Positions 7,199 through 61,200 of a DNA stretch of 64,000 nucleotides are shown here, one piece after another. The position numbers were made by a program, and so were the translations under genes. A model generated the notes under the pieces. The model did no database searches, was not told where the DNA came from, and worked only from the letters and a program-made list of their open reading frames with translations. The stretch spans positions 124,001-188,000 of the forward strand of contig JAULBX010001114.1 in assembly GCA_032358255.1 (NCBI GenBank). The letters run 5' to 3'. The first letter of the stretch is position 1, and each line of letters begins with the position of its first letter. The stretch comes from Heterotrichella gracilis (taxonomy: Eukaryota > Sar > Xanthophyceae > Tribonematales > Xanthonemataceae).

Positions 7199-10100
7199 TC
7201 ATGCTTTGCCTGTGGCTGGCGCAGCCGCGTTGGCCGCTGCCTGCGTCATGGTGCGGTGGTGGGAGGTGGAGGTATCCTGCTTGGTCACCTCCCGAATCAG
7301 CATAGTGGCGTAGCAGGAGGGGGGCAGCCTGAACTGCAACTGGACGGCCAGCAAGGGGGCAGCACCACCCTCCCCACCTCCTGCGGCGCCCCCCGCCGCC
7401 CCCCGCCCCTCCTCCACCGGCCCATGGCCCGACAGTAGGTCCAGGTCTGTGGCCGCCAGGTTGGCGTTAGGGTTTGTGTAGGGTATGAGGGTGTGGCGCA
7501 TCTCCCGCGGCTTGTGCAGCACGTGGCGGTAGTCCCCCGGCAGCGCGGTGATGGAGAAATCCCGTACGCCATGTGGCGCGCTGTCGAGGGACACCGAGTC
7601 ACGTGTCGCCACGTCAGCATACACCTGCACCCACACGCAAAGCATGTGGCTATCACAGGGCTGCGGGCCTTGTCTCGGGTACCCAGGTAGGAGGGTGTGT
7701 CAGAGTGTCAGGTACCAGGTAGAAGGGTGTGTCAGAGTGTCAGGTATCAGGTGGGAGGGTGTCGGGGGTAGGAGGGCATCATTTGAGGCAATGCGCACAT
7801 GGGGCACTCATGTGCCAAAGATGGCGGTGTGGGATGGGGCTATGGCAAATGCGGTGTGGGCAGCATAGCATGCCGTGTGCATGGATGTCCGTGCTCCATG
7901 CACACACCCTGCGCCGCCACCGCTTGCCACGCACACCCACACGTGGGTTTGCATGCAACATCAAAGCGCAATGGAAGGAAATTGGCGCTTCACTGCCAAT
8001 GCAAGCACCCGGGCGGCACAAAAAGTGATATGATTTCACTCAATTCACTGCACCTGTGCGGCGTTCCACCCACCCACCTGTGCAGTTGCGTGCGAGGGGT
8101 AGATGGTCTTGCAGCCCGGCAGGGGGAGCACCACCTCCTCGATTCCATACACCCCTTGCTCCGCCTCCTCCCGGGTGACCACATGCACGCGGTTCAGCCG
8201 CTGCTGGCTGCGGCTCACCATCATGTCACCCTCCTCCTCCACCTCCTCCACCTCATCCTTCTCCTCCCCTTGCCCCTCCTCAGGTGCCACACCCGCCTGT
8301 GAATAGCACGGGCCGTCATTCAGCTTTAAATGTGGATAATCAAAAGAGTGGATATTGCACGATTACAATTAATTTCATGTCACCCTCCTTCTCCTCCTCC
8401 ATCCATGCACCCGTCCTCAGGAACGGCGCCAAACTGTGATCACTTGAACATGTTGATAAATTGGGAAACCGATAATCTGCCTAACATTGGTTTAAACACT
8501 ATTAACATTGCTCACTAAAATAACTGATTACTCCGTGGTTGTGGTGGGAGTGGGTCAACAGCGTCAACCAAGGACCACGCAAGAGCAACTTGGAAGGTCA
8601 TGACATTCCCAAACCTCACCTGTGCGGCGTCCTCCCCATCTCCAGCAACCCCCGCTAGCACCAGGTCGCCCTCCACCGCCGAAAGGTGGCCAAAGGTGGC
8701 AATCCGGTGGCTGGCAGCCGAGTTCCACAGGTAGCTCTGGTATGCATGCACGTACATCTGGCGCAGGTTCCTGGGGATGGCCAGCAGCGCGTTGCAGTAG
8801 TTGGTGGCGCCGCACCGCTGCAAACCCTGCGCAAGGGTTTTGGGATGTAGGCGGCGATAGGTGCATAAATCAGGCGAAGTGCACGCCGCGTACCATACCA
8901 CACGCAGTGGGTCCCAGCTTTACAAATCATTTGTTTTCCACCACACCACGTCACATTAAACTGATTGGCCCCCAGCACAAAGCAGGTGCGGAAGGCGTAC
9001 CCCAGGGACTTCGTTCACCCAGGGCTACGCAGCCACATTGCAAAGCAGCTACCTATTCCACCACGGATACAGGGACACCTGTACCTGCACATGGCCCTCC
9101 ACGTAAAAATGCAGACCCTGTTCACCGCATCCGCCTCTGCGCACCCACCTCCAGTACCGCCCTCTCCCCCACGCAGTGCCTGGGCATCGCCTTTAGCGCC
9201 CCCCTCACATCCCCCTTGGTCAGGTACAACTCCCTTGCCTCCTTACTTTCCACCTTCTCACCCTCCTTAGGGCACATGATGAGGGACACCGCCTCCTGCC
9301 ACCGACCACCAATCAGCGCAGCCCCCACCCTGGAAAAGAAACAGAAAAATTGCATTAAAACTATGAATTTCCAAAATCTAAAGATGGTGCCAGACGGTGG
9401 CCAGCCATTATTACCCTTTGCTGCTCATATTTTGTGCTTGAAGAATGCATTCTTGACATAATGTCTGCAGCATTGTTCAATTGAACTGACTGCACAGAAT
9501 GCACATAATCGATACATGTTGCATGCATTTGCCTTGCAAACACATCTGCCGCCCCAGAATCCGCACCTGCTAACCTGTGGGTGGCCATCGACCTAAATCC
9601 TACACCCTAAACCCTACACCCCGCCACCGCTCACCTGTGGGTGGCCACCGCCCCCGACCCAAAGCGCTGCAGGCCATAGTAATTGATAAACCCGCTCTCA
9701 CGCACCCCGGCCACAGCAGCAGCAATGACCTCGGGGGACGCGGGCTCCACCCCGCGCAGTATGATGCTGAACTCGTTCCCTTGCAGGTCGCCCAGCTGCA
9801 GCTGCTGTGAGGTGAAGGTGAATGATCCCAGGCGCATGCCGCGCAGCCGCCGGTTCAGGTCTGACAGGCGGGTGGGGGTCACCTGAGGAAGGGGGGCAAA
9901 TAATGATTGAATTTGTAGTTTAATTGTAATATAAATATACTTGATCAGATACGATGTGTTGAGTCACTGCCCATCGTAAAATTACTTTAGTTGACAATAC
10001 AAGATCCAGTGATTAATTTCAATAGTATGGGGGGATGTAAGAGGGTTTGGAGTCTTGCAATCATGGCTTGGACGGCAAACAATGTGCACGGCTGGATACC

Positions 10101-12391
10101 GATCCTCCAGAATGCATGCAACCAACTGCAGTGCCAAATTTGACGGATATTTGCATGGATAGCATTGAATAAGTTCGGGCATCCGCTGCTGCACCACACC
10201 TTGAAGAAGGTGATGTTTTGCGTGGTCACCGCGCGCTTGTCCTTGGTCCCCGCAACCGACACTGCATGCGGCGGGCAGTGGAGCAGGTGGGACAGGGTGC
10301 CCAGGGCAGCTTGGGTGTCCAGATTCTCCTTGAATAGCACACATTTCACGTATTTGTGGTGCCCCCCGGGCCACTCCCGGCTTGTGATCTGCCCCTGTGG
10401 CATGCCCTGCTCCCGCTTGCGCTTGTTGGCAGCCCGTCTCACCTGCAAAATTGAAACAACCAATGTGGTTCAGTTAATTCCTGGGTGTGGGGATTGTGAA
10501 TGGTACATCTGCGATTTTGCAGATTGTAAAGGTGTGAAAGCCAATACGCACTTGAGCAAAAGTGTTGTCCTTTGTGAGCACATGGCAGCGAGTTGTGCTG
10601 GACAGGAATGCATGGCGTGTGGCTACTGTCGGTAGATAAATCCCTCTGATAGTTGGAGCTGTAATCGTAACCGTACAAACATTTTTTTTCATATCGTGTT
10701 GAATTTCAATAGCCAACAAGATGTGTGTTAAACTACAAAATCTGTGTATTTTGTAGTCCAATACAACCTCAAGCCTATCCCCTAGCCTGCACCCACCACG
10801 CTCAGTCGGATGCACCCCACGGTTTGCCCCTCCTTGCCCTCCACAGGCACTTGCACCGTCTCGGACACCATTGGCGGCAACCCGTGGTCTTGCTTGAAGA
10901 ACATGTGCACAGCCTGCAGCGGTGGGGGATGAGCCTCAAAGGCTGGTTTGTGGCAATTGTAATGATGCATTGCAAGTCATGCAGTTTCAGGTGGAAGGCC
11001 GTGCTCAAACACACATGCGCACAGCCCACAGCGACAGGGGGCGAATGGGCCATAGGTGTGCACTAATTCAACGGGCATTAGAGGAAATGAGATGCCATGC
11101 AAGCAAGGGGAAGATGACTATCATGAACGGAACATCTTCACAGCCTGCAAGGATGGCCAGCCAGTGATTAAATCTGCGTCCATGAGTGCACATTGGAATA
11201 ACATATATGCATTCCAGCTTGAAAGCAGACTAGCAGGCAGCCCCTATACATGCGGCAATGTAATAGACTGCCCTAACCCCTAAATGTGGGACGCAGAGGA
11301 TCCACATGTGCGTTGAGGTGCATGGGGCCATGTGCATTGTGATGTAGAGGATCCATGTCACATGGACCATGTGTGCATTGTGGTGCATGGAGCCACACCG
11401 TTCTGCGCTCCTTGTCTGCATCGGGCGCCAGCACAACAAATTTGGGCGGTCTGGTGGCGCCAGACTCTGGTCCCTGGGTTGCGAGCACCTCCTCAAACGC
11501 AGCTCTTTGATCCAGGAATGCGGACAGCTTGTCGGCATTTTCCTGCCCAGCGACGCTGGCAAACTTGGCCAGTGCAGCTGCCAAGACTGCTGGGTCGTCC
11601 TTAAGGTTTTCCAGGGTTAGCGGAGGGCTTTGGGGTGCTGGTTCTGCTGCTGGCTGTGTGGTTTGCGCCTGCTCCTCCGCCTCCTTGCTGCCAGTGGCAA
11701 CCTCGGCTGGCGCGGCCGCCGCCTGCATATAATCAATCAGCGTATGCATAAACCATTTATTCTGGCGCCACAGTAGCTGCAGCAGTAAACCAACAGCCAC
11801 AAGCTGGAAGCTGCGCTGGCTGGCACTGTCTGTTGACGGAAAAAGGCGGATTTCGGGGTGCTGTGTTGGCTTACCTGTGGTATGGAGGTGCTGGTCAGGC
11901 GTGTGACATTGCCGTCCAAGTCGACCTCTCGCACGATAAAGTCGCTGTACCTGCAAGGGCAGTAGGGGATTATAACAGGTAACTGGTGCTAGCCTAAACA
12001 AGTGCTCAGCCCCCGACCCAGTGCTATCCCACATCAGTGATAAGCCTTAATCAATCCTAGACCCTAACCCAGTGCTCAACTCAGGTGCTAGCTCCAAAAC
12101 TAGTGCTAGCCCCAAACCTAGTGCGCTACCGCTGAAGGTATAGAGCTAGCCCCATATATGCATGCACATGGTAAACTGCTAAGGTTCTTACTCGTGACAG
12201 TATTGGTTCAACGGCCTTTTCAAAAGAACCTTATGATTGCTTAGTGATCAAGTACCCCGTGCAGTCGTGAGCAACACGCGACTGGCGACGTTCTGCTAGC
12301 CATGGCCCCACCTCTGCTTTAGCACGCCCGAGAACCCTTTGCAGGTATTAACGAACTGGGTAAGACCCACATCGGCTTCAGTAACAGCCAT
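7199..12391 (-). CDS. PUS7: TruD-family pseudouridine synthase PUS7, 706 aa
   Basis: Ten exons join in phase: 12391-12312, 11950-11875, 11722-11399, 10913-10797, 10442-10200, 9882-9635, 9329-9149, 8826-8620, 8296-8078, 7624-7199. The N-terminus MAVTEADVGLTQFVN, GFSGVLKQRYSDFIVREVDL is the PUS7 opening. The catalytic TruD core shows AGTKDKRAVTTQ (with the catalytic Asp), then GFINYYGLQRFGSGAVATHR, IPRNLRQMYVHAYQSYLWNS, VVLPLPGCKTIYP and finally LPPSCYATMLIREVTKQDTS. PUS7 makes pseudouridine in tRNAs (positions 13 and 35) and in some mRNAs. An Ala/Glu/Gln-rich insert lies in exon 3 and an acidic low-complexity stretch in exon 9. The last about 20 residues (TMTQAAANAAAPATGKA) are an alga-specific tail. 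The gene is divergent from DAD1. Confidence 0.96.
7684..7767. repeat. tandem repeat of about 32 bp, 2.7 copies, in the last PUS7 intron
   Basis: Copies begin near 7684, 7716 and 7748, each starting CAGGTAGGAGGGTGT or close to it; the first two continue GTCAGAGTGT. Purely intronic, with no sign of function. Confidence 0.8.
9571..9655. repeat. duplicated exon edge of PUS7 exon 6 around CCCTAAA motifs
   Basis: ACCTGTGGGTGGCCA at 9573-9587 recurs at 9633-9647. The second copy covers the 3' end and donor of PUS7 exon 6. Between the copies lies TAAATCCTACACCCTAAACC, a degenerate telomere-type tract. Confidence 0.75.
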
Positions 12392-12947
12392 AACCCTACT
12401 CCTGCGTGATAGCGTAGAAACGAAGCCGAGAACCGCTGGCAGCTAAATTACTGCACATGCCAGGCCATGTAGCCGCCACAGACGGCTTGCAAAGGAGGCG
12501 GTGGAAGCACTCCTGTGGTAGAGAGCCCACAGTAACGATACAACACAGCCCAAAGTGGGTGAGATGTGGCTTCTTCAGCGTTTGTCTTTGCCCTTCGCAC
12601 TCATGCCTGCGGCGGAAAGGCCGCTTTTAAAACCCCCGCCGGCCGTCCACAGTGTTTGGTCCCAAGATGATCATTTCGGTTTCTATAAGTAGGTTGAGCA
12701 AGTGCAACCGTTAAGCAGACACCCATCTATACATCTACGCAGACAGTGCTGTTCCATCTGTAGACACTGGAAGATCAAGTTGGCAATCGTCCTCCATCAC
12801 TTGCATGCATGCACCAACTGATGGCCTTGTGACCATTCAGCGTGCGCAAACACAGGCAGCAGTATCAGTTGTGCAAAAGAGCTGCAATCTCAGACTAAGA
12901 TCGAACTCAAAGAACACTATTCAAGGAAGGGCGGAATCTTGGCAGTC
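12392..12947. promoter_or_regulatory. divergent promoter region of PUS7 and DAD1
   Basis: A 556-bp gap separates the two start codons. A TATAAG sits in TTTCTATAAGTAGG near 12683, on the DAD1 side. No exon was found. Promoter role is inferred only from the head-to-head layout. Confidence 0.5.
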
Positions 12948-13662
12948 ATGGAATCGCTACAGCACATTTCCTCCGTGTTTGCCCAGCAGTACAGGAAGAC
13001 ACCAACGAAACTGAAGGTAGGTCACCAGTTTTGGCAGGTGGCATACCAGTGGGGTTGCATCCACTGGCTGCCTGGCAATATCTGGTTGGGCAAAGTTGCT
13101 ATGCGCTGTTGCAGCTCAATGACTTGGTTGCTCTTTGCCTGTCAACACACCAGTGGGCTCAAATCAACGTGTGCCAAACTGCAGGTGCTTGACTGCTTCC
13201 TAGTGTATGCACTGCTGACCACAGGCGTACAGGTAAGGTGTTTGATTACCGAGATATCAATGCATTGTCCACTGATGCCACAAACGTGTAAGCAACCTTG
13301 TTCTTGTGAATAACACCAATGCTTGTCGCAGTTTGCGTACATGATGCTGGTGGGTACTTTCCCATTCAACGCTTTCCTGTCGGGGTTCTTCTGCTCCCTT
13401 GGGTTCTTCATCCTAACAGGTAATTGCAAGCTCAATCGGTGCTCCTGCCACTTGCTAAGCAGGCAACCTTTGCCAGTTCAACCCTTGAACACACTGGACA
13501 AAGAGTTTAAGCGGTGTGCCTGCTTGCTCTGCAGTGTGCTTGAGGATGCAACTAGACCCAGCCAACAAGGAGTTCCAGGAGCTGGCTCCGGAGCGTGCCT
13601 TTGCAGACTACGTGCTGTGCTGTTTGCTGCTGTTCCTGGTGTCGTGGAACTTCATGGGGTAA
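12948..13662 (+). CDS. DAD1: oligosaccharyltransferase subunit DAD1/OST2, 110 aa
   Basis: Four exons, 12948-13016, 13185-13232, 13332-13419 and 13535-13662, join in phase. The protein starts MESLQHISSVFAQQYRKTPT, then KLKVLDCFLVYALLTTGVQF, then MLVGTFPFNAFLSGFFCSLG and ends FADYVLCCLLLFLVSWNFMG. These are the hallmark blocks of DAD1, with three membrane segments and the conserved PERAFADY before the last one. DAD1 is a small membrane subunit of the ER complex that transfers the preassembled glycan to Asn in nascent proteins. Length is within the usual 110-115 residues. An upstream in-frame TTG is ignored; the first ATG is at 12948. Confidence 0.97.
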
Positions 13663-14166: not shown

Positions 14167-29650
<15,484 letters not shown>

Positions 29651-34162: not shown

Positions 34163-37100
34163 TCACACAGTGATTGCGCTGACCTCCAGGTGCACCGCGC
34201 TGACCGTGGCGTGCACCCGCTTGATGGTGCTCTGCAGGTGCAGCTTGTGGTTGAGCACCAGCTCCAGCGCACTGGACACATCCTGCTGAAGAGTGCGCCG
34301 CTCAAGCTCAACGGTCCTGCATGCACACGCGGCACGTCAGGGGATTGGGGATGTAGTTGGGGGTTCACTTGGAGTGCACCCACAATCAGGCATGGCAGGG
34401 CCGCTGCACCCAGGTGATGCAGTGCGGCCTCGGCATGCATTGGCATGCGTCCCATCCAACACACATGAAGCAGGCCTGCGCACACATCCACAAAACGTAG
34501 ACCACAGCCAACCACACAAACCATCCCCAAGGGCAGCACTGGATTCTTCAGCATACCGTACATCAAACTTCCTCAGGCACCCTACCTACCCTTCTCAGCA
34601 TGGACCCCATATGCACACCATTGATACACACACCCTTTACACACACACGCATTCCCCACGCACCTTTGCAGCTCCTCGTACTCCCCCTGCAAGGCCCGTA
34701 GCCGCTGGTCGCTCTCCGCAATGGAGCTGGTGGCGGCGCTGCGCAGCTGGGACACGTCCCCCCGCAGCCTGTCTGCCTGGGCGGCGGTGGCGCGCACCTG
34801 CGCCTCAACCGCCTCCTTCTCAGCCTTGAAGGTGGCCTCCAGCTTGCGCACCTGTGGGGGGTGGGGTGGGGTGGGTGGCACGGCACGTTAGCCATGGCGG
34901 AGGTAGGAGGTGCATGATGTAGCGCAGATATGGATATGGGGCGTGGGCGCCATGGGATCAGGGGGCATGCCGATGCCATTGCATGTCCCACATGCAATGC
35001 GCTGCTGCAGCACCTAGCCATGCTACAATTAACACTGGGATACATGCAAAACACAATCAGCTGTTGTGGGTGCAGCAGGGGGCATGATTGACTATCTCCC
35101 ACCCTGGGATGACAGGACCAGCCGCCCCTCGGGTGAACATTATTATCATATAATGGGCCATTGCCAGGTGTGATGCACCTGGTAAGTGCAAACTTGAGAA
35201 GCGGATGGCAATTGGTTTTTATTATTGCTCTTGCCTCCTTTGGGGGAAAAGCTTCAACAGTTCTCTTTCAAATTTTATAGGGAAGTTGCGCGCTCACCTG
35301 CACCTCCAGCGCTGCATTCTCCTCCGTCCTCTCAGTCAGCAGCTCCAGCCCTGTGTCGTGGCGCTCCTGCAGGGACAGCAGCTCCTCCTGCAGCTCGCGC
35401 GCGCGGCTGGTATAGCCGTCGTGCAGCCGCTGGAGGGCGGGCTTCACCATGCCCTGCAGGGGGGAGGGCGGGGGAAGGGGGTGAATGATGGGGACATGCC
35501 ATGGTGGTGTGGGGGCAGTGGCATGGCTAGTGGGACGATGAAATGCCTCGGATGAATAGCCCTAGGTTCACGTAACCGCAATGAACCCTTACATGGAAAT
35601 TGAATAATGGTGCCTGGCAGGGGTTGGGCAAAGTAATGTGTGGCCATCCAACCCAGCCATTCCACATTCACGAATGACCATGATAATCATGCATCGACAT
35701 TGTGAGGTCCATGAACACCCTGCTGAAGATGCACATAACTGGCACACAAACTCACATGCACTCTGTTTGAGTTCACCCTAAACCCTAAGCTCACCTTGAG
35801 GTCCACGCTGAGCAGGTCTGAGGGCGCGGCTGCGGATCGGTCCACGCGCATCTCAAAGCTGAGGCCATGCGCGTTCTTGGCGGTGGCGGGGATGAGGTGC
35901 AGGCGGTCGGCCTTGGCGTGGTACTCCTGCAAGGGACAAGTGGGTCATATGGGGTCAGCATTTGGGATGGGTGCATGTGGCGTGTTGGCGTCAGCATGTG
36001 GGTGGGTGCGGGGCCATGCTTCATGCCGTGCTGCAGCTGCATGCCTCTTTGCACAACCATGGCAGAAAAGGAAAGCTCCAGTTGCGGCACTCAGCTCATG
36101 TGCTTGTACACAGGCAACGGATGAGGCTCAGCTCAAGCTGCTGGTGCCGTCCATCACATTGGGGTGAGATCCCATATGCTGTGTTTACTGACTTGGCAAG
36201 AGGGGAGACAGCCCCGTGCTGGCCCTGTGCGCCACACCCCACCACCGCCCACTGCATGCCAACACCTGCCGCCAACCCACCCCATCCCCCACCTGAATGA
36301 GCGTCTCCATCTGGTCCAGCCTGCGCTCCGCTGCCACCTCCTGCTCGTACACGCGCGCGCCCAGTAGCTCCCGCTGCTGCATGGCGCCGGACAGGATCTC
36401 CTGGTGCTTGCTCCTGCAGGGGATGGGTGGGGTGGGGGTGGGAGGGTACACAGGCACCACAAGCAGTGGTTGGGCTTATCAGGCAGAGGGCAGTGATTTG
36501 ATAGCTGCCATGCACAGGTGGAAGCATTCGGGGGAGAGGTTGATGGCTGCCATCCGCACACAGGAGCGGCGATTGGTGGTTGCCATGCACACTCGTGGGG
36601 CCCCTGACCCTCACTGGAAGACCTATTTTAGGGTTTTAGGCAGGCAGCACATGAGCCAAGAGTCCCAGACCCTTGCGTATATCAGGGGTATACTAATAAT
36701 ACTAACTAGTATTATTAGTATACCCCTGCGTATATGGAGCCCATGGGACACAGGCAGTGCATAGCAGATCAATGTACATTGCAAGATGCGGACATGTGTG
36801 ACTCACTTTTCCTGCAGCATGCGCAGCACGTCCTCCTTGTGCACCGTCTGTGTGGCCACCCGCACCCGCAGCTCCTCATTCTCCTGCAGCACAGCACATG
36901 CACACATCAGGGGAATGCGCATAGCCACATGAGCAGCACTTCAGCATGGGACTGATGCACGCAGGAGCTGGGATCGCGCATGGGCAGTGGGGATTCGGCA
37001 TGGGCAGCAGTTAAGCATGGGACTGATGCACGCAGAGCAGGGACTGAGGATGGTCACCCACCGCTTCCACTGCCTGCAGCGCTTCCAGCTTTGCCTTGAG

Positions 37101-48515: not shown

Positions 48516-51500
48516 ATGGTGGAGCTGGAAGACAGGGTGAAGAGCAGGTGAGCACGTACATCTCCATGAGAAAGGATTTTATTGGATTGTAACGGGGCGG
48601 CAAAGAATGCCCACTTCGCCTGCAGCTGCGAAAGTTCCATTCATCTGCCCACAAAGGAAGGAAGTCATACCCTGTTGCGATCTATAACAGGCAATGAACT
48701 TCCAAGGCTGTACTTGTCTTACATTCACTCCAGATAAGGTTACCACCTCCAATGACTTTCTTGCAGAGCTTTTGCAGCTGTGCCTTTTATGTTTAACAGG
48801 CAGAGCTCGCCCCTGTCTGTGCCCCTGCGGTTGCCTTTCCTAGAAGACCAGGAGAATACCATGTTGCCCGTCCCCAGCGATTCCCCACCGAGATATGAGC
48901 CTTTTGACGTGGACGCTGAGTTTCAGCAGAACGGTGAAACGGCCACCCACTACTACGATTCCGACGAGGATGACTATGTGTTGAGAAGGAACTCTGGAAC
49001 CTTGAGGTCCATATTCCAACGAGAACAGATCGAGAGCTCACGGGTCAACCACCAGTATTCACGGGACGAGCGGTCCAAGCTACGAGACACGGAGAGCATA
49101 GACTACCTCCCTCCAGCCAGCGTGGTATACAAGGAATGGCTTGTCAGGCAGCCGTTCAACGTGGTGTGGGACCGGTGGTTCATGATGGGGAGCATTGGCG
49201 TGACCACGGGGCTCATCGGCTACTGCTTGTACACAGTCATCGACATCCTGGCAGACGTGAAATACCACACCACCAGGAACCTGCTGGCCCAGTACAACCT
49301 GTTCCTGGCGTGGTTCTTCAACGTCTTCTACAGCCTGCTGCTGGTGTTTGTGTCCAGCTATCTGGTGGTGAACATCGCGCCAGCAGCCAGCGGGGCGGGG
49401 GTGGCGGAGGTGATGGCGTACTTGAATGGGTGCGCCATGCCCAAGGTGCGGGTGCATCCATAAGCAGTTGCGTAGTTACTTGCATTCCGCCAGAAAAAAA
49501 CAAAATGGCAGCTAGCCTTGCACCAGCATGCGCCCAGGCACTCTGACCTGGCATGTCTTGTACCATTAATGAAGGCATGGGGCAGGGGCATGTATGCATG
49601 CATATGGTCCACATGTTTCACCCACACCACCAGATTACCAGTTGCCGCTGTTGGTCCTGCAACTGCAACCGACAGCATTGACTGAAAGTCAGTGGGTGAT
49701 TTGTGGTTCAGATCTTCAACATCAGGACGCTGATTGTCAAGTTCTTCTCATGCGCCACCGCGGTGGCATCTGGCCTGCCCATAGGCCCTGAGGGGCCCAT
49801 GGTGCACATAGGAGCACTAATAGGTAAGAGTGCTCCCTGTAAATCTTTTCTATATGAGCACTTGAAGCAGTGCCATGTGACCCGCATGTCCAATATTTGC
49901 AAGCCAGCATTACAGCCTGGATAGCATCCAGACTTGCAAAATTCGCGTGAAGCAGTCATATCCTGGCAGTGCAATATATGCATCTGCCCATTTGTCTAGC
50001 TACAGCATGTTTGGTTCCGAACTGGGTCTATCTGTATTCCCGTGCAGGCGCTGCGTTGAGCCAAGGGCACTCCACGAGTATGGGCTGCGACACGGGGCTG
50101 TTCAAGCGGTTTCAAAACCCAAAGGACAAGCGTGATTTTGTGACAGCAGGTATGTAACCAAAACGGAGAACAGGGCGTCACAAACGAGGCATGTGCAGTG
50201 GCTTCAAAAGCATGGCGCCATACCAACCCATGCCACCACGCATCCACGCGCATGCCATCTAACACCACCACCAGTGGCACCACGCTTTCATGCGCATTGT
50301 CATCCCGCAGCCATCTCATGGATGTCATGCCCCGCGCAGGCTCGGCAGTGGGCGTGGCCACGGCGTTCGGGGCGCCGATCGGCGGCCTGCTATTTGCGTT
50401 GGAGGAGGTGGCATCCTTCTGGCAAACCACCCTGGGCTGGCACACCTTCTTTGCATGCATGCTGGCGGTGCTCACGCTGGACGTGTTTCGCTCAGCCGAA
50501 ACCGCGCTCACCCAGGGCCACTTTGGGCTCTTTGACGGCCACGCGTCCATCCTGTATGAGGTGGAGACCCAGCTTGCCATGCATGTGGCGTTCATCGTCC
50601 CGGCGGCGGTGATCGGGCTGCTGTGCGGCCTGCTGGCCATCGCTTTCACCAAGCTCAACATCGGCATCACCAAGCTCCGTGCGGAGACCATCAAGGGCAA
50701 CAAGCGCGCCAGCATCGCCGAGCCCTGCATCCTCATCGTGCTGTTTGTCACCTTGGGAATGCTGCTGCCGCTGTTCTTCCCCTGCACGCCCGCGCAGTGC
50801 TACGTGCAGGTGAGCCCGCTGCGGCCCATTACACTTGAGGAGGGTAAAGGGCATGCCACCCCCCACAGGGGTCCCCAGATGGCAAGGGGGAGGCTTTTCA
50901 TGAGAATAAGAATAACTGTGTACCCGCCCGCGGCGCATCATTTCTGACTCAGCTCTAAAATCCCGGGTTGTCCATTGGGGATGATTTCATGCCTGCCCTC
51001 ACTCCCCCTGCACATGAGCCTGGATTTGCACAGCACTTAATGGGACCTGGTGGCCCCCTTCCCCCCGACACTTGCAGATGTTACGCCGGACACCTACCCT
51101 TTAATCTGTTTGTGCAGGCTGGGGGCGACATGTCAGTCAAGTGCCAAACCGAGCACGCCACGCGGGTGGTTGAGCAGTCCATTGAGCTGTACACGTGCAA
51201 GATCAATGCCACCGAGAGCGAGGTGCCTGAGGGGCTGGACGTGGGCGACCAGCCCAATGTGAATCGCTCCTACAACGAGCTGGCAACGCTCATGTCGGTC
51301 ACAGGTGCGCGGCAGGGATTGGGGTTTAGGGTTTGGGGCGTACAACAAGGATTAGGGTTTAGGGTTCGGAGCATCTGACACTCATATATGTCAGGTGCAC
51401 ATGTAGCATGGACCATTGCAAGGAAGAGACATACTAAGTCAAATTGTGCACTGCGTCCTGGTCAATTTCAGGATGGGGATGGGTTGATTACACAAAGCAT

Positions 51501-53974
51501 GGACCATTGCTAGGGTTGTAGATTGCTTGGATAGTTCGTCAACAATCTGCTGCCATTGGGACCCAATTAGGGCAATACTGCGTGCGTTCCAGGATTGCAC
51601 CCACCCCCCAAACCCTGCCCCCACCCTCCCGCAGGCGAGGACACGATACGGCACCTTCTGTCGCGCGGCACGCACCGCGAGTTTGGCTACGGGGCGCTGG
51701 TGGCCATGCTGGTGTTTTACTTCCTGGGCGCTGCGTGGGCCGCGGGCAGCGCCATCAGCTCGGGGGTGTTTGTGCCCATGCTGCTCATCGGGGCGCTGGT
51801 GGGGCGGCTGGTGGGGGTGATGGCGGTGGACCTGGCGGCGTGGTCGGGGCACGGGTCGCCGGGGTGAGTGGGTGGGGAAATCATTATTGCATTGAATCAT
51901 TTAACTTTTATTTATTCTGGGTTGGGTGGGGGCGGGGTCCTCTACCAGATGCATTGCTTTGCCGTCTTTGATTAGGTGCTTGTATTCATATGCAATGTTC
52001 TCGAGCACTGCAGGGCTTTATTTTCAAGTATGCATGTACAATTGAGTGAGTTTTTTTTCACCTGTGTTATGAAGTGTGCAGTTGAGAAGTGAACCCTACA
52101 GTTTATTGACACTGCTCCACCCACCCCTTGCACCAACCCCACCCACCCCACTCCTGCAGCGCCCCCGCTGGCGTGTTTCTGCCCGACTCCTCCTCCTGGG
52201 CGTGGATAGACCCGGGGGCGTTTGCGCTGGTGGGTGCAGGCGCCTTCATGGGCGGTGTCACGCGCCTCACCATCAGCCTTGCGGTGATCAGCATGGAGAT
52301 CAGCAATGATGTGCGCATGCTGCTGCCGGTGCTGGTGAGTGTGTGTGGGGTTGTGTGCTGTGTGTGTGTGAGGGGCCCCGGGGGTGCATGGTGATGGTGC
52401 TGTGGTGGTGTTGGTGGTGGAAATGCTGCTGCCAGGCTGGTACACCAAGCGCTTCTACTGCATGACTGTGCAGTATGCCATGAGTCATGGCCCATGACCA
52501 CTGTGGTTCCCTGGGGGGCATTGCCGCTGCTGCCTCAACAAGCGCATATAACCAACCCCAACTAATGTTGCCATCCCCTCGCGGCAGGTGAGCATCATGG
52601 TAGCCAAGTGGGTAGCGGACGCCGCCACACATTCCCTGTACCACAGCCAGCTTGAGATCAAGTGCGTGCCATTCCTGTCCCGCCAGCCTGTCAGCAAGCA
52701 GTCGCTGGACCTGGTGGAGGTCAAGCACGTCATGCAGTGCCCGGTGGGTGGGGGGAGGGGGGGGATGTGTTGGGTGGGGGGGTAGAACGCCATGCAGTGT
52801 CTGGTGGGTGGGGGGGGTCTCCGGTGGGTGGTGGGAGGGTGAAGCGCACCGTGTATTAAGTGTTCAATGTTGTCGGGTAAGTGGATTGGGGCAGGTGGAG
52901 TAGGCAAGAATAACACAGTGACAGAGATTGTGACCTTCAAGGAGAAGATGCGGCTGGGCGATCAGTGCGCAGCGCTGGTTACACCCACTCGCCAGTAAAC
53001 CCTAAACCCTAATCATCATCCTTCACCCCGCCCACCAGGTTGTGCCCTTCAAGGAGAAGATGCGGCTGGGCGACCTGCGCGCAGCCCTGCAAGACACCTA
53101 CCATGTAGTAACCCTGAAATCCTAAACCCTAACCCTAAACCCTCCCCCGCACCTTCCAGGTTGTGACCTTCAAGGAGAAGATGCGGCTGGGCGACCTGCG
53201 CGCAGCGCTGCGCGACACGGGCCACAACGGCTTCCCGGTGGTGCGCCCCAGCCCTGTGGGAGACGTGTTTATGGGCCTGGTTGTGCGCGATCACCTCATG
53301 GTGCTGCTGCTAAGGGCGGCTGCGCTGGGCACCACGCACAACCTGCACGTGCCCTGGCAGGACCTCAACAGGCGGTTTGTGTCGGCGCCGGCGCTGCAGA
53401 TGCTCACAGGTGGGTGGCGAGTGTAGGGTGGAGGAGGTGGAGCATGAAGCCAATTGATTACAAGGGCTGTCGGGGGAGTAGGGTGTAAAGCTCGAGTCTG
53501 TGTGGCTGTTTATGGTGGATGAACCATGCCACGCCACAACCTGGCAGCCGTGCACGCCACCCATGCTGTATACACCTTGCTTGGCGTTGCACACTCCTTA
53601 ACCTGTAAATGCAGTTTCAGCCAAACTGCCTGACACCATCCCCTCCCTCGACCCCAGGCGCCCAGATGGCAATGCTTGAGGGGCGCATCTCCTCGCGCGA
53701 GGGCGAGGGCCTGTGGGACCAGGTCCTCGACCTGGCGCCCTACATCAACGCGAGCGCATTCGCGGTGGCGGAGTCCTTCTCCCTTGAGCGCGCCTACATG
53801 CTGTTTGTGACTGCGGGGCTGCGCCACATGGTTGTGGTGGACGAGCACAATCGGGTCAAGGGGATCATAACACGCAAGGACCTGCTGGGGTTCAAGCTGG
53901 ACGAGGCCACCCACAGGGCGCGGGGGCCGCGGATGCAGTACTCGACGGTGGCGGAGGGGATAGCGGTAGAATAG
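48516..53974 (+). CDS. CLC-type anion channel or anion/proton exchanger with CBS domains, about 891 aa
   Basis: Eleven exons join in phase: 48516-48547, 48800-49445, 49712-49823, 50048-50149, 50340-50809, 51118-51304, 51635-51863, 52160-52334, 52588-52743, 53160-53409, 53658-53974. An acidic N-terminus leads into the membrane domain: TGLIGYCLYTVIDILADVKY, then GAGVAEVMAYLNG, the gating motif GLPIGPEGPMVHIG, GAPIGGLLFALEEVASFW, SSGVFVPMLLIGALVGRLVG and DPGAFALVGAGAFMGGVTRL. Two C-terminal CBS domains follow (KMRLGDLRAALRDTGHNGFP; LRHMVVVDEHNRVKGIITRK). Both the gating Glu and the proton Glu (ALEE) are kept, which favours an exchanger, probably of an internal membrane as in the CLC-7 group. The anion-site Ser and Tyr are Ala and Phe. 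The first exon (MVELEDRVKSR) is chosen by phase; ATG 48789 is the alternative start. Confidence 0.94.
51316..51366. repeat. telomere-type TTTAGGG motifs just after a CLC donor
   Basis: GGGGTTTAGGGTTTGGGG and, 30 bp on, GGATTAGGGTTTAGGGTT lie within 60 bp of the donor after 51304. The two units are similar to each other. Confidence 0.8.
52926..53219 (+). repeat. three tandem copies of the 5' edge of CLC exon 10, separated by CCCTAAA motifs
   Basis: Copies of about 52-60 bp start at 52927, 53039 and 53160, all reading TTGTG(A/C)CCTTCAAGGAG and on to GCGGCTGGGCGA. The third is the exon used. AAACCCTAAACCCTAATC (52998) and AAACCCTAACCCTAAACCC (near 53124) lie between them. The second copy also has an acceptor (CCCACCAG) but meets no usable continuation. 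Confidence 0.9.
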
Positions 53975-55351
53975 AGGCGGTGGGGTTTTGGGTGGGTGGG
54001 ATGGGAGGAGGTGGGGGGGTGCGCCCGGGGTGGGGTCTGCTGACGAGGGGATGGCGTTAGTATAGAAGGAGGGGAGGGGTGGGGTACCATGTGGTTGTAG
54101 GCTGGTGCGGGGTCCACTAGTGGATGTTCATCATCATGGACTTTGGGTTTGCGCTATCCCCTGTGGGTGCTGCAGGGGCGTGGGAGGTGCCTGGGCCCAT
54201 GGGAGGACCTTGTGAGATGCACTGGTTTGCGTAAGGCCTGACCTGGGCAGTGCACCTATACCGCAATCTGTTGGGAATGTTTCCTTCTAATGAATCGATT
54301 TGTGTTTATTTTCTCGTGGTTTCATGCTGCCTGCCGCTGCAAGATGCGCTTGCCACTGCCCATGATGACATTGGTCAGCCTGCAAGCTGGTACTCCGTAT
54401 ATATTCGCATAGGGATTTTAAGTGTACAAAGTCTATATTGCAGACACTGTAGTTGTGCGGCGGAACCAGGCCATTATTGAGGAATGTTTTGCCTCCCTCT
54501 TTCTTGTCATACTGTGCACCTTCAAGCTTGTTTGTTGAACCTGTTACGAGGTTTATTTGTGCCTTCCGCTTTCTAGAATCGCAATTTGGTGCACTGCCGT
54601 GTGCATGAATTTCCACCATGATGGCCGGTCTTTGATTGAACAAATCACCAGAGCCTGGTCCCCAAGACACTGTGCGCACACACAGGGGTACCACCGGTGG
54701 TAATATTTTTTGTTCCATCATGATAGAACATGCATGAACAAACTTTTAAAGTCTTCAGCATGCCGTCATTGATAGAAGCAATGTAATTTACCAGGTCCTC
54801 TGCTTCTGAATTATTATATGCTCCGTCGCGGGGGCAAAGTGGAGAGCCCGGCCCCGGGGGCTGCTGCTAGCTGAGTCAGACAGTGTTAACAAGAAACTTT
54901 CAGAAAATATCTCTTTCAAAGAAAAAAAACAACATGGCCTGTAGCACACTAACTCCATCCAAAAATGTATTCAATTGAACTGGTAAAGCCAAAGCCTTAG
55001 GGCATAGTATGTCCTTAGGGCATATATGCCTTAGGGCGTATACCGTAAGGTCTCAAAACTTGGCACCTAGCTTCCATTGGCGTGCATTAAACGGCACAGC
55101 AACTGTTGTTGTTACAAGGTGATTCAGAGCGTGTGGGCAAAGTCGACATGAGCACAGTCACATGATGAGATTGAGTTCTGAGTTCTGATTATTCTGAACA
55201 TTCACGGAAACAAACCATCCTGCGATCACAATTATGCAAACGGTTGATGTGGTACGTTATTATATATACATTCAAAAAAGGAGCTTAGCAAAGCCATCAT
55301 TCCAGTCCAATAAAAAGAGGCAGTGCCTGGCCCAGCCCCCCGTATGCCTTG
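53975..55351. other. convergent intergenic region between CLC and the AlkB gene
   Basis: Contains the 3' flanks. A short repeat is present at 54994-55050. A 144-codon minus-strand frame at 54287-54721 has no recognisable motif. Confidence 0.5.
54994..55050. repeat. three imperfect copies of CCTTAGGGCATA
   Basis: GCCTTAGGGCATAGTATGTC, CCTTAGGGCATATATG and CCTTAGGGCGTATACC follow each other. AT-rich and non-coding. Confidence 0.7.
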
Positions 55352-56689
55352 CTACTGCCCTGGCCCTAGCCAGCCATGGGCCGCCACCCGCCGCATGGTG
55401 AGACCGATGCGCAACCCCCGCTGCACCACCGCCCCGCCACCCTCCCCCACCACATCCTCCCCCCGATAGGCAATGCCGTGCTGCCACTGCCAGCGGGCGG
55501 GGCCATGCAGCACCAGCAGGGACCCAGGGGTGAGCAAAATGCTGGACATTTTGCAGCGGGGTGCCCAGCCTTCTGATTGTGATGATCCCGCTCCAGCATG
55601 CGATGGACTGGGGTCGCCGGCTGGGGATTCCAATTCGAAGTCCATGACAAGCGGGGATCCCAGGCTGAGGACTGCCACCACCTCATCGAATTTCTCCAGG
55701 TCGGAGTGGAAGGCAAGGCCCTCCCCGGGGTGGTACAGGTTGACGATGATCTGGTCAAAATACCCTGGCTGGAACTGGGGTGGGCGCGGTGGCGGGGCGC
55801 ATTGCCCTGCAGGAGACCTGCCATCACATGCGTGACCATGCGGTTGTGAGGAGGCTGTGGCGTTGGTCACCACCGTGGAGCATTCCTGGTACGTGTTGTG
55901 TGGGACTTCCCCGTTCAAGCTGCTGGTTTGCCCTCCTTGTTGCACTTGCTGACGAGCCCCACTTCCTGCATGCTGATCCCCAGCTGCTGCATCGATGGTC
56001 CCAGTCAGCCCATGCCCTGTAGCTGACTCCCAGTGCCGATGTGCACAGCCATCCTCAGGGGAGGCGCTTGAGCACCCCCCCGGTAGGGTTTCCGACATGA
56101 GCTCCTCCATCCCAGCTAGGGTTTCCGTGATGCGCTCCTGAACCCCAGCTAGGGTTTCCATGATGCGCGCCTCGGCTGCAGCCACCACCGCCCTGCTCCA
56201 GTCCGGCAACGGGTGGCCAAAGTGCATGAACTGGTTCCTCCCCTGCACCCTCCCTGATCCTGATTCCCCCCCTTGGAACAGCTGGCGCACGAGGGTGGCA
56301 AAGCAGGCGTCGGCATCCAGGGGGAAGAGGAAATCGGGGAGGAAATGTAGGCCCCGAATGGACCGCGGGTCAACGCGCTCCCCTGCCTGTGCACCGCAGT
56401 CGCCCGCTCTGTCCTGCCCCTGCCCTGGAGGGTTTAGGGTTCCTGTGGCGCCTGGTGTCGCCCAGCTGGGGTGGGCGGCCTCGTGGAGTGAAACCCTAGG
56501 GTGGGGTTTGCTTCGCCCGGGCTGGTGGGCGTGGCTGGTGGGGCTGGGTGGCGCAAGGGGTGGGTGTGCTGTTGGAGGTGAGCGGGGAGGGGAGGAGGCT
56601 GTAGCTGGTGCTGCTGGTGGGCCCTCATCCTCGTCGCTGTCTGTGCCAAAGACTGCGCGCCACGTGGCGCGAGCGGGGCGGGGCGCCAT
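55352..56689 (-). CDS. AlkB-family 2-oxoglutarate/Fe(II) dioxygenase, 445 aa, intronless
   Basis: One open frame from ATG 56689. A disordered Pro/Ala-rich N-terminus leads to SIRGLHFLPDFLFPLDADAC and RNQFMHFGHPLPDWSRAVV. An insert of about 130 residues contains an 11-residue repeat (ETLAGVQERIT, ETLAGMEELMS, ETLPGG). The catalytic half has QIIVNLYHPGEGLAFHSDL, with the His-x-Asp iron ligands in FHSDL, then VVAVLSLGSPLVMDFELE, the distal His in RWQWQHGIAYR and the 2-oxoglutarate Arg motif RGLRIGLTMRRV. The LSLGSPLVMDF signature is closest to the ALKBH8 group, which hydroxylates the wobble side chain of tRNA, but no RRM or methyltransferase domain is present. Substrate is therefore open. It is the only complete multi-hundred-residue gene here without introns. 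Confidence 0.9.
   Translation of the reverse strand: MAPRPARATWRAVFGTDSDEDEGPPAAPATASSPPRSPPTAHPPLAPPSPTSHAHQPGRSKPHPRVSLHEAAHPSWATPGATGTLNPPGQGQDRAGDCGAQAGERVDPRSIRGLHFLPDFLFPLDADACFATLVRQLFQGGESGSGRVQGRNQFMHFGHPLPDWSRAVVAAAEARIMETLAGVQERITETLAGMEELMSETLPGGCSSASPEDGCAHRHWESATGHGLTGTIDAAAGDQHAGSGARQQVQQGGQTSSLNGEVPHNTYQECSTVVTNATASSQPHGHACDGRSPAGQCAPPPRPPQFQPGYFDQIIVNLYHPGEGLAFHSDLEKFDEVVAVLSLGSPLVMDFELESPAGDPSPSHAGAGSSQSEGWAPRCKMSSILLTPGSLLVLHGPARWQWQHGIAYRGEDVVGEGGGAVVQRGLRIGLTMRRVAAHGWLGPGQ
56084..56160. repeat. 33-bp coding repeat with TAGGGTTTCC, three copies, in the AlkB gene
   Basis: TAGGGTTTCC occurs at 56084, 56117 and 56150. On the coding strand each gives GGAAACCCTA, encoding ETL. 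Another telomere-like stretch, GGGTTTAGGGTTCC near 56430, encodes GTLNP. Confidence 0.85.
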
Positions 56690-57579
56690 GGCATGGGTGG
56701 GCAGCTGGTGCTGAATGCGCGCACTGTGACGGGTGCGTCGGCCAGCACAGGGGTCTGAAGGCTGCAGTGATGGGTGTGCAGGTCGTGTTGCTCCTGCTAG
56801 TGGGTGGTGGTGGCTGGTGGTGGCTGGTGGTGGGCTGTCTGGTGGGGGTGTGCCAGAGCTTGGTCCAGCACTGTACTGCAGTGTTGGCTAGATTAGTGTG
56901 CTGCTTGAGTTAGGAAACCACCGTCACGCCAATAGCACGGGATCAGCCTGAAGCAAACAAGTGAAGTGACCCCCTTCATGTTCAACCATCTTGCAATGTT
57001 GTGTTGCACTATCTACACACATGCAATAAGCCAATCACGGGTGTATTCGGCTGAATAACCACCAACGACTGCTTATAAACGCTCCTGTTGCAGAGCACAG
57101 CATACATACCAGTAAACGGTCGTGCAGGGGCGAGTACATGCATGCACCAAGTTGCCTTCAAGGGGAGGACACCACCTAGCCGAAAGCTCGGAACCATTCG
57201 TTGGCACATGTGCACATATTACACCGAATTGGTGTAGCTACACTACGCAAATTGAGCAGGACTGTGCTTCCAAAACCGCGTACTTTTGGGGTTAGAGCGA
57301 GCCGGCCAGGCAGTGTCTTGTAATGCCCACGTCGTTGTGCATGCGTTGCATGCATGCATATGCAATCGTCCAAGCTGTAAAGGTCATAGAAACAGCGTGT
57401 GCAGCCCTCTGTAACCAGCCATGGGGTTTAACATCTTCGGTCCAATTCGCATCCGCACAAGAAGGGGCACGGAGATAACCGCTTGCAATAGATTACCACA
57501 CCAGACATAATGCAGGCGTGGTACTGGCGCGTTTATCTTCCTGCCACTCACGGCCTATTCCGCATGGTCCTTGTTCCAC

Positions 57580-57665
57580 CGGCCCGGTTCGAACCCGCGA
57601 CAGCTGCCGTCCCAGGGCCGTGAAATTCAGCTGGAGGACTAAACCCTCGCTAGGCTACAGGTAGG
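57580..57665 (-). mobile_element. candidate tRNA-derived SINE or tRNA relic
   Basis: On the minus strand an A-box-like TAGCCTAGCGAGG (57657-57645) is followed about 50 bp later by a B box GGTTCGAACC (57595-57586). The arms that would form an acceptor stem do not pair, so this is not a working tRNA. A tRNA-related SINE head is the best guess; its end was not located. Confidence 0.35.
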
Positions 57666-57762
57666 TCCTTCTCCCCGTGGAGGTTCTCTCTTGGTTTGGT
57701 GGCCTATCTAGTGGAATGGTGTGTAAACGCACCCACATGGGGCAGCTGCATGTGTCTTGCGT

Positions 57763-57805
57763 CAGGGTTTGATATACCAACTAATAGTATATTAGTTTAC
57801 CCCTG
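57763..57805. mobile_element. 43-bp diverged palindromic mini-element, CAGGG ends
   Basis: It begins CAGGGTTTGATATACC and ends TTAGTTTACCCCTG, with a central palindrome (ACTAATA GTA TATTAGT). The last 14 bases match the element at 36683-36728 at 13 positions. CTTGC flanks both sides (57756 and 57806). Confidence 0.5.
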
Positions 57806-58224
57806 CTTGCAGTGCGTGCAAGGAGGTACCCGCGTGCCAGTTCAGTGCTGTGAATGTATACCAGGCCCAACCTCCTAGGCAGTACCAGCCCTGCATGCTG
57901 TTCTGCACAGGCTGTCTAGCACGACGAGTGCGTGAGAGCACTCCTGTGAATCCCTCTCTGCTACCCACCTCGCACTCTCCTTCAGTGTGTAGCTACTGTA
58001 CCTGCAGATCTGTATAACCAAGCAGGACCAACCTGGCCTCTGGTGACATAATGTCGCTGCAGCGAACACGCCATCCTTTGTTTTTTACTACCCATACCAG
58101 GGTAGTAACACAGCTTGTCACCTCTCCCTCTGCAGGGGTCCTCTAGGTGCCACCATACCCTACCCCACCCGAAGCACACCATAGCTCAGCCTTGAGGCAG
58201 TAGGCCCCTTGGCGGTGGTCCCCA

Positions 58225-58262
58225 CACAAGGGGAGCACAAGGGGAGCACAAGGGGAGCACAA
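58225..58262. repeat. 12-bp tandem repeat, three copies (AAGGGGAGCACA)
   Basis: Three exact units just upstream of the CHD-like start codon. Too short and regular to be anything but a simple tandem repeat. Confidence 0.85.
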
Positions 58263-58277
58263 CCACAGCAGCGGGCG

Positions 58278-61200
58278 ATGGAGGGGACGGATCCGCAAGC
58301 ACTGGCGGCAACCCCGCAGCCCTCCGCAATTGCACCTGACGCACAGGTAAATAGAGCAGAACCAGAAAACAGTGAAGAGCACGCCGCACCCCGTACAGGT
58401 CCTTGGCAAGTCCTGGGTGAAGCACAGGTAATAATTTAGGAGCCCATTAGTACTAGTCTTAAGGTCTGTACTCCGAGCAACTTGGTGGCAGCCCAAGGCC
58501 TCCAACCTGCGGGGAGAAGCCCTGGGGTTAGTTACTAACACTGGTGATGACTCCTCATTGGCTGCAAGCGCCTGTGTAGCTCTCCCTTCCTTCACACTCA
58601 CACATACAGCAGAATAATTATAATTAGAAGAACCTCCCTACCTTTACACAGGTTGCCGTGGCCCAGGAGGAGGTTTCGCCTGCCGCCAATGGGGAGGTGT
58701 CGCCTGTACCAGACCAGGAGGTTTCGCCTGCAGGGCAAGGGGAGGTTTCACCTGGAGGACAAGGGGGCAGATACCCCCCGGGGTATGGGCCACTGGGCAA
58801 GCTTCCCCAGAAGAGGAAGGCGCCAGGGGAAGGGGAGGATGGTGGGGAGGGGAATTTACCCACCCTCACCCCTCGCCAGGCAGCAGTGGCCCGCCTGTGT
58901 CACCAGCAAAGGTAGGTCGCACAATACCCTATCGGGAACCCTAGGGTACACAACAAAACAATGCAGGACAGGCAGCAATTCTGATTACTCTTTTTAGAAG
59001 TGAATGGTGTGCATGATTTGGCCTTCTGAAGTCTGCTCACATAGTAAATAAATAATATATATAACAAAAGTCAAGTCGCTCCAGTGCGCATGGCAGCCAC
59101 CACCCCTTGGCCATCCCTGGCTGAATTCTTACACCACAATTCCTTATGCAGGGTTGAGGGTCGGCGTCTTGCGCGCATGATACTCGAGGGGCAAAGGGCA
59201 TGCACACCCCCGCCTCCACCCACCCCACCCCCGCCACCCGAAACCACCATAATCCCCCCCGCATCACCCCATGCGGCGCAACCCCTAGGCCCACTCTGGA
59301 AGACCAAGGAGAGGGAAGCCCTAAAGAAGGGTTTGCTGGCGTACGGGGTCAACCGCTGGGACGTGGTACGTGGCCTCCATGCACGTGATCCAAGCATAGG
59401 ATGGTGCATGCAGGTGGCAGTGGGATCATGGATTTGCAACCAATCACATGGCATGCATGTGGTGGATGTGAATGCTGTACCCATGCATGGCCAGGTGATC
59501 ATCACCCCATGTAACCATGTACATCATTCCTGCCTTACAAACGTGCTCTTTTGCTCCCTGGCTTGAGGTGTAACCTAAACTCTAAACCCTGGACCTGCGC
59601 GCCGTCATCCCTACCGTCCCCGTTCTTTTTAATGTGGCCATCCCCCCCTCTTCCAGGTGGAGGCCTCCCTGTACCGCGCCTGCACGCGCTGCCAGCTGTC
59701 ACGCGATGACATCATCGCAGGAGGCAGGCACTTTTGCCAGTCGCTGCTGCCGTACGCCACGGGGGTGGATGCGGACACCTTTGCGCAGGTGGGGCATGTA
59801 GGCAAGGGTGTTACCCCACAGCCAGATTTTGCCACTTATGGGGCCAAAACTTTAAATTCCCCCAAAACCCCCCTTCCTCGTCATGTATGGTGTATTTGAG
59901 CACTGTTTTAGGGTTATGGCCCCCATGATATAGGGTACAGTACTTGTGGTGTGGATGCGGACACATTTGCGCAGGTGGGGCATGCGTGTAGGGTACGGTC
60001 GTCATGGTGTGGGTGTGGCATGTGGGTTATGGAAGTTGTCATCTGATTGCAGACGCGCGTCAAGATCGTGGTGGGTCTCAAGGGGTAGTATTATGATGAG
60101 GGTGGGTGTAGTATTATGATGAAGGTGGGTGGGTCTGAAGGGGTAGTTTTGTGATGAGGGTGGGGCCTGTGCAGGTGTATGTGGAGGGCTGCGCGGGGCA
60201 TGAAAATACTACCATCGTTGATCTCGCCCCACGCACCCGACATCAGGCGGAGGGCACCATTCCCTCCCCCTCCTTCATGTACCACATAATATCTCATATC
60301 CATATTTCGTATCTCCGTACCCCGCCACCATGACACCATGTTTGAATTGTGCCCTAAAGACATTACATCTTACCGCGGCATCTGTGAGGCTGCCACTTTT
60401 TGACGTTCCCTCATGGTATTCCCCCTCCCTCCCTTCCACAGGTGATTTCCGAGTGCGACACCGCCGCTGGCCCCAGCCCCCCCGCCCTGCCGGAGCTTGA
60501 TTGGCCCCGCATAGATGTGTGCGCACAGGGCTGGCTTAGGAGGCTGGCGCTGCTGCGCAAGGTGGACAAGATTTGCTGCGCTATGATGGCAAGCGAGGAG
60601 GTGGGGCGCAAACCCTAAATTCCAAACCCTAAACAAATGCTTCTGCGCAAGGTGGACAAGATTTGCTGCGCTATGATGGCAAGCGAGGAGGTGCGCCGGA
60701 AACCCTGAACCCCAAAGTCCAGACCCTACATTTAAACCAAAAAAATAAACCCAAACCCTAACCCCAAACCTCAAAGCCAAATGAGGGAAGAGGTGTGGGG
60801 CGGTGTTGGTGGTGGGGACACAAGGATCCTTCCCCTGACACCAAATGTTTGGGGCTAACCCCTTTTCAATCATAGTGCCTTGCATCCCCGGAATGGGACT
60901 CACATATATCCTGCGTGTGCATGCATATCAAAAGTGACATCTTTGTAAATATTCATTGGTTTCTTTATTTGCCTCCCAGGATTCCCAGAAGTGCTTCCAC
61001 GCCCTCGACACCATGCCCGACTCCTCACCCCCTGCCGCCTGGTGGAGCGCCTCTGCTGACGTGGCGCTCATGCTGGGTGTGTGGCGGCACGGGTTTGGGG
61101 ACTACGGGGATGTGCAGAGGGATCCCCAGATGGTGGCGGCGCGCCAGGCGGGGGTGGCGGGGGCAGGTGCGGGGATGGGAAATGTAGCTGGGGGGGGGGG

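Follow-up and report, generated by a model that had tools for sequence, protein, structure and literature searches.

The window analysed here, a 64,000-nt stretch of the Heterotrichella gracilis genome (assembly GCA_032358255.1, contig JAULBX010001114.1, positions 124,001 to 188,000 of the forward strand; bases 124001-188000 of contig C13), carried exon edges that were duplicated in three genes, PUS7, CLC and a CHD-like gene, with telomere-type tracts (TTTAGGG or CCCTAAA) lying between the copies, just as an original prediction made from the sequence of the window alone had described. A telomeric insert together with its two flanking copies is probably what remains of a staggered break repaired by the addition of telomeric repeats, with a bias of such breaks to 5' splice donors. 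Two features of the pattern went beyond the original prediction: the association was chiefly with the 5' splice donor, and part of the pattern consisted of an insert flanked by a duplication of its own target.

Duplicated exon borders in PUS7, CLC and the CHD-like gene

The duplicated borders of the three genes, with the tracts between them, were located as follows (a slash marks the splice border):

9561 to 9593, minus strand: PUS7 exon-end copy with splice donor, intronic copy
9604 to 9616, minus strand: telomeric tract separating the PUS7 copies, in TTTAGGG orientation relative to the gene and 18 nt past the donor
9621 to 9653, minus strand: PUS7 exon end with donor CACAG/GTGAGC, taken from the reading frame as the copy in use
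52925 to 52977, plus strand: CLC exon-start copy 1, within the intron
52996 to 53012, plus strand: telomeric tract separating CLC copies 1 and 2, in CCCTAAA orientation relative to the gene
53035 to 53097, plus strand: CLC exon-start copy 2, within the intron
53121 to 53143, plus strand: telomeric tract separating CLC copies 2 and 3
53156 to 53218, plus strand: CLC exon start with acceptor CCAG/GTTGTG, continuous with the exon
59762 to 59798, plus strand: CHD-like segment with donor motif GCGCAG/GTGGGG, copy 1
59948 to 59984, plus strand: CHD-like GCGCAG/GTGGGG segment, copy 2, 186 bases downstream of copy 1
60549 to 60603, plus strand: CHD-like exon end with donor GAGGAG/GTGGGG, taken as the copy in use
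60610 to 60634, plus strand: telomeric tract 9 nt past the CHD-like donor, in CCCTAAA orientation relative to the gene
60639 to 60693, plus strand: CHD-like exon-end copy in the intron, 54/55 bases identical to 60549-60603, followed by a degenerate telomeric stretch

The two PUS7 copies were identical at 27/33 bases, and 9621-9653 was taken as the true exon end because continuing the frame beyond the other copy's donor led to an in-frame stop. In CLC, inspection of the translations showed the last copy to be the in-frame exon start. The spacer between the CHD-like segments 59762-59798 and 59948-59984 was 149 bases long and contained three telomeric heptamers. Of the gene names given in the original prediction, Pfam supported PUS7 through a TruD domain above the cut-off (E 1.5e-15). 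The CBS match of CLC (E 0.0002) scored 22.0 bits against a cut-off of 24, and the CHD1 HTH match of the CHD-like gene scored 19.2 against one of 27, so that both fell short.

By inspection, in PUS7, the CHD-like gene and the DHAD gene of locus L032 it was the exon-proximal donor copy that continued the known protein, with the distal copy lying in the intron. The insertion thus seems to have lengthened a pre-existing intron and left decoy splice sites behind, the copy in use being assigned from the reading frame; no clear case of a newly created intron was seen by eye among the translated loci.

Direct repeats flanking telomeric tracts

The genome searched comprised 68.5 Mb in 903 contigs. The locus sample contained 71 sources, namely the window plus 70 loci (L009-L078) from the same genome that were chosen for holding or surrounding a perfect telomeric 21-mer, out of the first 100 places listed; 14 distinct tracts from those 100 places were left out, one on C21 and the others between C48:118817 and C58. 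This choice of loci inflated the density of tracts in L009-L078; it did not select their positions relative to donors. Tracts close to locus ends were dropped (157 kept versus 165 counted with a slightly different motif list), with similar drops in the flanking-repeat, outer-flank, segment-end, acceptor/purity and exact-edge tests. Two different sets happened to number 157 tracts: the position list and the set used in the flanking-repeat test, the latter with at least eight overlapping heptamers per tract across the 71 sources.

The original prediction had linked exon-border copies to telomere motifs as a speculation, and this link held outside the window against controls in two complementary tests. 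(i) Starting from the tracts (window plus L009-L078), a direct repeat with a score of at least 18 spanned 71/157 tracts versus 286/6177 random positions, the latter being drawn from the window and L009-L028 only, and both copies lay within 10 bases of the tract at 22/157 tracts versus 8/6177 random positions. The repeats at the 71 flanked tracts had a median length of 41 bases (middle half 31-53) and a median identity of 0.90. (ii) Starting from local duplications with a spacer of at least 5 bases (window plus L009-L028), 82/124 had a telomeric heptamer in the spacer versus 23% of random spacers taken from these loci, and 60/124 had four or more spacer heptamers versus 11.5%; in the window alone, 5/9 local duplications had a telomeric spacer. 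The spacers of the other 42/124 local duplications held no telomeric heptamer, and short tandem duplication is therefore common in this genome even without telomeric sequence.

Exact copies of at least 9 bases were present at both tract edges for 7/147 tracts versus 1/2593 random places. Two of these were short (12 bases in L074 and 10 bases in L055), and some targets were therefore shorter than the main test can see. At L074 484-508, a three-unit telomeric tract lay between two exact 12-base copies, below the main repeat score.

Association with 5' splice donors

A strict donor denotes here a sequence motif, its use as a splice site being unproven, and overlapping matches inside one tract were counted separately in the genome-wide pattern searches. 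Across the genome, AGGTGAG was followed within 0-30 nt by TTTAGGGTTTA (TTTAGGG orientation) 104+106 = 210 times versus 19+20 = 39 times for the reverse order, and by TAAACCCTAAA (CCCTAAA orientation) 71+57 = 128 times versus 18+16 = 34 times for the reverse order. At 91-121 nt past the donor, TTTAGGGTTTA was counted 30+33 = 63 times in the TTTAGGG orientation, the only one counted at this distance, and several of these matches were second units of arrays.

The same bias was seen in the window plus L009-L028. Sense telomeric coverage around 363 strict donors reached 0.047 at 20-39 nt downstream versus 0.011 overall, and stood at 0.005-0.017 in the 100 nt upstream of these donors. A strict donor was found no more than 30 nt upstream of 33/108 tract clusters versus 7.8 after shifting, a count that 0/1000 shifts reached, and only 5/108 clusters lay on the exon side. 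Within the window itself, 6/13 tract clusters had a strict donor no more than 30 nt upstream versus 0.7 after shifting (0/1000 shifts reached 6); the donor of one of these six (53121) was on the strand opposite the CLC gene, and therefore five window clusters are credible. Forty-eight strict donors had a tract in the 100 nt downstream of them, and at 29 of these the tract lay within 20 nt.

The first 20 bases after 220 telomere-free donor motifs were 43% G with a skew of +0.43. When 20 words of the same composition were compared, the telomeric word in sense orientation was the most donor-enriched (4.6-fold; next 3.1), and in antisense orientation it was equal first (1.5-fold), most other words being depleted; a preference for G-rich words alone is therefore insufficient.

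The ends of the duplicated segments were likewise placed with respect to donors. The donor was kept in both copies in 36/61 pairs versus 34% of random segments with simulated copies; in those 36 pairs, the exon part was the longer one in 31/36 (random 45%) and the intron part measured at most 12 bases in 27/36 (random 30%). When duplications were collected blind to telomeric sequence, those whose spacer contained a single telomeric heptamer being excluded from both groups, the exon part was longer in 31/40 with a telomeric spacer versus 11/21 with a non-telomeric spacer, and the intron part was at most 12 bases in 21/40 versus 5/21.

Telomere repeat and telomerase

CCCTAAA occurred 18 times in the window versus 5.1 (standard deviation 2.25) in shuffles. 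Across the genome, three perfect units in a row (21-mers) were found 428+406 times and the reversed pattern 0 times, and seven perfect units in a row were found on 11 contigs (45 overlapping matches). On six contigs the seven-unit arrays were on the plus strand, within 200 bases of the contig start and in chromosome-end orientation; on the other five the orientation was opposite. The arrays at the starts of those six contigs, oriented as at a chromosome end, make it very likely that TTTAGGG is the telomere repeat of this genome, and the inserts matched this repeat. The Telomerase_RBD domain (TERT RNA-binding domain) was matched on C626 (L079, L080) by two stretches about 430 bases apart (E 4.8e-13 and 8.0e-9).

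Proposed origin of the inserts

The arrangement suggests the following course of events. (i) Two opposite-strand nicks, some 25-80 bases apart, would open a staggered break at which both ends keep the inter-nick segment; at the preferred sites, one nick would fall in the upstream exon and the other about 5-15 nt beyond the 5' splice donor, giving 3' overhangs that reach from the exon to just beyond the donor. (ii) Telomerase, or a reaction on its RNA template, would add a few TTTAGGG units at either 3' end. (iii) The second strands would be filled in and the ends joined, yielding segment, telomeric insert and segment in this order, with both insert orientations possible. (iv) The exon end and its donor would thereby be duplicated, the first copy staying in use and the second becoming a decoy in the lengthened intron. 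(v) Slippage or unequal exchange between existing inserts could later multiply the unit into arrays. In plants, adjacent opposite-strand nicks give tandem duplication of the inter-nick segment; such plant duplications are not known to carry telomeric filler.

A shared repair process had been suggested in the original prediction, either end joining by polymerase theta or telomerase acting at breaks. Telomerase-type addition fits better of the two, the inserted sequence being very probably the telomere repeat of the organism itself, in either orientation, between copies of the target; the break-repair step itself is inferred. The sense orientation was the commoner one next to donors (210 versus 128), which would follow if priming is more efficient from a G-rich 3' end at the start of the intron. 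Our guess is that transcription, together with G-rich intron starts prone to R-loops, underlies the donor bias. It is also conceivable, and is put forward tentatively, that breaks at 5' splice sites are regular, tied to transcription or splicing and regularly healed by telomerase, thereby lengthening introns, planting decoy donors and feeding alternative splicing.

If the proposed origin is right, this single genome would hold (i) hundreds of candidate cases that form a natural record of the places where genes break, (ii) a record of telomerase acting away from chromosome ends and (iii) a concrete route to intron growth and duplicate splice sites; moreover, splice-site or R-loop boundaries as sites of breakage would become testable.

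Observations against the proposed origin and alternative explanations

Several observations weigh against the healed-break origin. No flanking repeat was found at score 18 for 86/157 tracts. Junction bases matching the telomeric repeat in register showed, in the 15 simple cases defined below, a slight excess only (mean 0.93 and 0.80 versus 0.41 and 0.37), and tract purity was not correlated with copy identity (rho 0.07, p 0.62), a correlation that simple joint decay predicts. The all-against-all locus search for an empty site gave 9 cross hits of at least 120 bases, none of them empty, the hit closest to a tract (L068/L074) ending before reaching it, and the CHD-like region was found only once in the genome, with no paralogue. 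In the telomere-blind set, the share of duplications with a donor was alike for telomeric (40/86) and non-telomeric (21/48) spacers. Acceptor-like motifs had a telomere peak of their own, smaller than that of donors (up to 0.031 versus 0.011), and the duplicated border in CLC is itself an acceptor; by inspection, L035 and L010 seem to be further cases of this kind. Acceptors were present in 16/59 duplicated segments versus 18% of controls, a slight excess without positional bias. Finally, the outer-flank test, which 3.9% of random 30-mers passed, was applied to 36 closely abutting pairs: a telomeric outer flank was found on the left in 12, on the right in 14, on both sides in 5 and on neither side in 15. 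One or both outer flanks were thus telomeric in 21/36 pairs, a result that duplication of a unit already containing the tract would explain as well, and two of the 15 simple, neither-flank cases (L016 2862 and L034 1013) looked by inspection like parts of telomere-rich arrays.

The strongest competitor is tandem duplication by replication slippage or template switching at a pre-existing telomere-like, G-rich intron start, with the tract as part of the unit, which we judge clearly less probable than a healed break and still worth serious weight. Besides the telomeric outer flanks, it draws on the G-richness of intron starts and on multi-copy arrays in which the unit included the tract (L016 3387-3700, L011 4976-5100, L036 and the CHD-like gene). 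Against it stand the 15/36 pairs with no outside telomere by score, where an insert lay between copies of a site that was itself non-telomeric by score. Several of these pairs had copies 93-97% identical (33/34 in L027, 26/27 in L057, 26/27 in L039 and 70/74 in another), and it is therefore unlikely that an outer tract had decayed away there. Slippage also leaves unexplained the origin of perfect 21-mers at hundreds of sites, and the tracts in CCCTAAA orientation where CCC is depleted. The remaining pairs fit the multiplication of a unit made up of exon end and tract, with three or more copies present in L011 (bromodomain gene), L016 (CAF1-like), L036 (RCC1) and L034. Probably both processes occur, insertion with target duplication coming first and array growth later.

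Arrays of donor plus telomere units were also observed at C228:54348-54652, C420:132363-139203 and C487:111412-111721, the one on C228 giving five overlapping pattern matches in about 300 bases. Similar donor-telomere junctions occurred in pairs on one contig at C378:29777 and 35198 and at C886:120217 and 124812; the members of each pair are perhaps duplicates sharing one insertion.

It is improbable that donor-side telomere motifs were kept or spread for a function, as splicing enhancers or telo-box-like binding sites, with the duplications as a by-product of unstable repeats. The tight placement of donor-linked tracts (29/48 at no more than 20 nt) would suit such a role, as would the report that Arabidopsis telo boxes are commoner in the first two introns (excerpt of PMC3022908). 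Both orientations were enriched, however, the tracts ranged from perfect to degenerate, and the abutting target duplication would need a separate explanation.

More improbable still is a mobile element, introner-like or LINE-like, whose insertion would bring in telomeric sequence and leave long target-site duplications, one possible agent being a reverse transcriptase with telomeric RNA as its template. Transposition typically leaves abutting target duplications at many unrelated places, but the duplication lengths varied (middle half 31-53), unlike a fixed-size target duplication, and the 31 inserts inspected by eye consisted of telomere repeat plus varied filler, with no introner-type or other non-telomeric sequence in common, no element search having been made. 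Chance, low complexity or assembly error is very hard to credit: many short tandem repeats (45 rows) were present in the window, but the duplicated copies were about 10% divergent at the median, hence not assembly echoes, and the pattern was not reproduced by shuffles, reversed patterns, shifted positions or composition-matched words.

Comparison with known systems

It is already known that telomeric repeats can be inserted at breaks, occasionally with a duplication. The mammalian interstitial telomeric sequences are alike in being short internal inserts of the organism's own telomere repeat, sometimes with a direct duplication explained by a staggered break, and telomerase has been proposed for them (excerpts of PMC2246262 and PMC7215372). 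Duplications were reported there at 6/130 rodent and 4/25 primate loci (PMC2246262) and at 3/66 horse loci, plus two with deletion, addition and duplication, staggered breaks being invoked for the few duplicated insertion sites in the horse (PMC7215372). Set against these mammalian loci (PMC2246262, PMC7215372), the present case shows three differences: (i) the mammalian location was called probably random, whereas the tracts described here were biased to splice donors; (ii) a flanking repeat was present at 71/157 tracts here versus few mammalian loci; and (iii) insertion in mammals was shown by empty orthologues, whereas it is deduced here from the anatomy of one genome.

Plant telo boxes are similar in that telomere motifs are concentrated in transcribed 5' regions, and a model based on transcription and R-loops, with free 3' ends as the telomerase substrate, has been put forward for them; they are single motifs mainly in 5' untranslated regions and promoters (excerpt of PMC3022908), whereas many tracts described here were multi-unit, lay at intron starts and were accompanied by exon-end duplication. 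Intron gain by tandem duplication or end joining likewise leaves a duplicated segment beside the intron, or direct repeats after break repair (excerpt of PMC3296678); it differs in that the introns of PUS7, CLC and the CHD-like gene had, by inspection, a separate far end and were lengthened rather than created. An intron running from a donor in copy 1 to an acceptor in copy 2 inside an otherwise continuous exon was not seen in these three genes.

Searches of open-licence papers brought up neither the strong preference for 5' splice donors nor the high proportion of exon-end duplications, and no paper among those listed was recognised as dealing with telomere tracts at splice donors; the excerpts of PMC8226300 and PMC6549138 did not treat the pattern.

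Other telomeric tracts and minor observations

The original prediction had also placed telomere motifs close to three further splice sites of the window, and for two of them a donor motif was indeed found just upstream. These tracts and one more were as follows:

35775 to 35788, minus strand: telomeric tract 6 nt past donor motif CTCAAG/GTGAGC, not among the listed flanked tracts
51322 to 51366, plus strand: two telomeric tracts, the first (51322-51334) 17 nt past donor motif CACAG/GTGCGC
63003 to 63053, plus strand: degenerate CCCTAA-type array 6 nt past donor motif GAGCAG/GTGCGC, with a weak flanking repeat (score 15)

The third predicted site was of another kind: the tract at 16329-16359 had no donor motif upstream and ended 11 nt before a border that follows an acceptor-like CAG on the minus strand, making it a possible acceptor-side case.

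Outside the window, L009 and L018 shared several stretches at 75-87% identity in differing orders and orientations, a pattern that a repeated element or a gene family would produce, and a single RuBisCO small-chain match was present on C125. Within the window, positions 56077-56173 were occupied by 2.9 copies of a 33-base tandem repeat that included TAGGGTTT.

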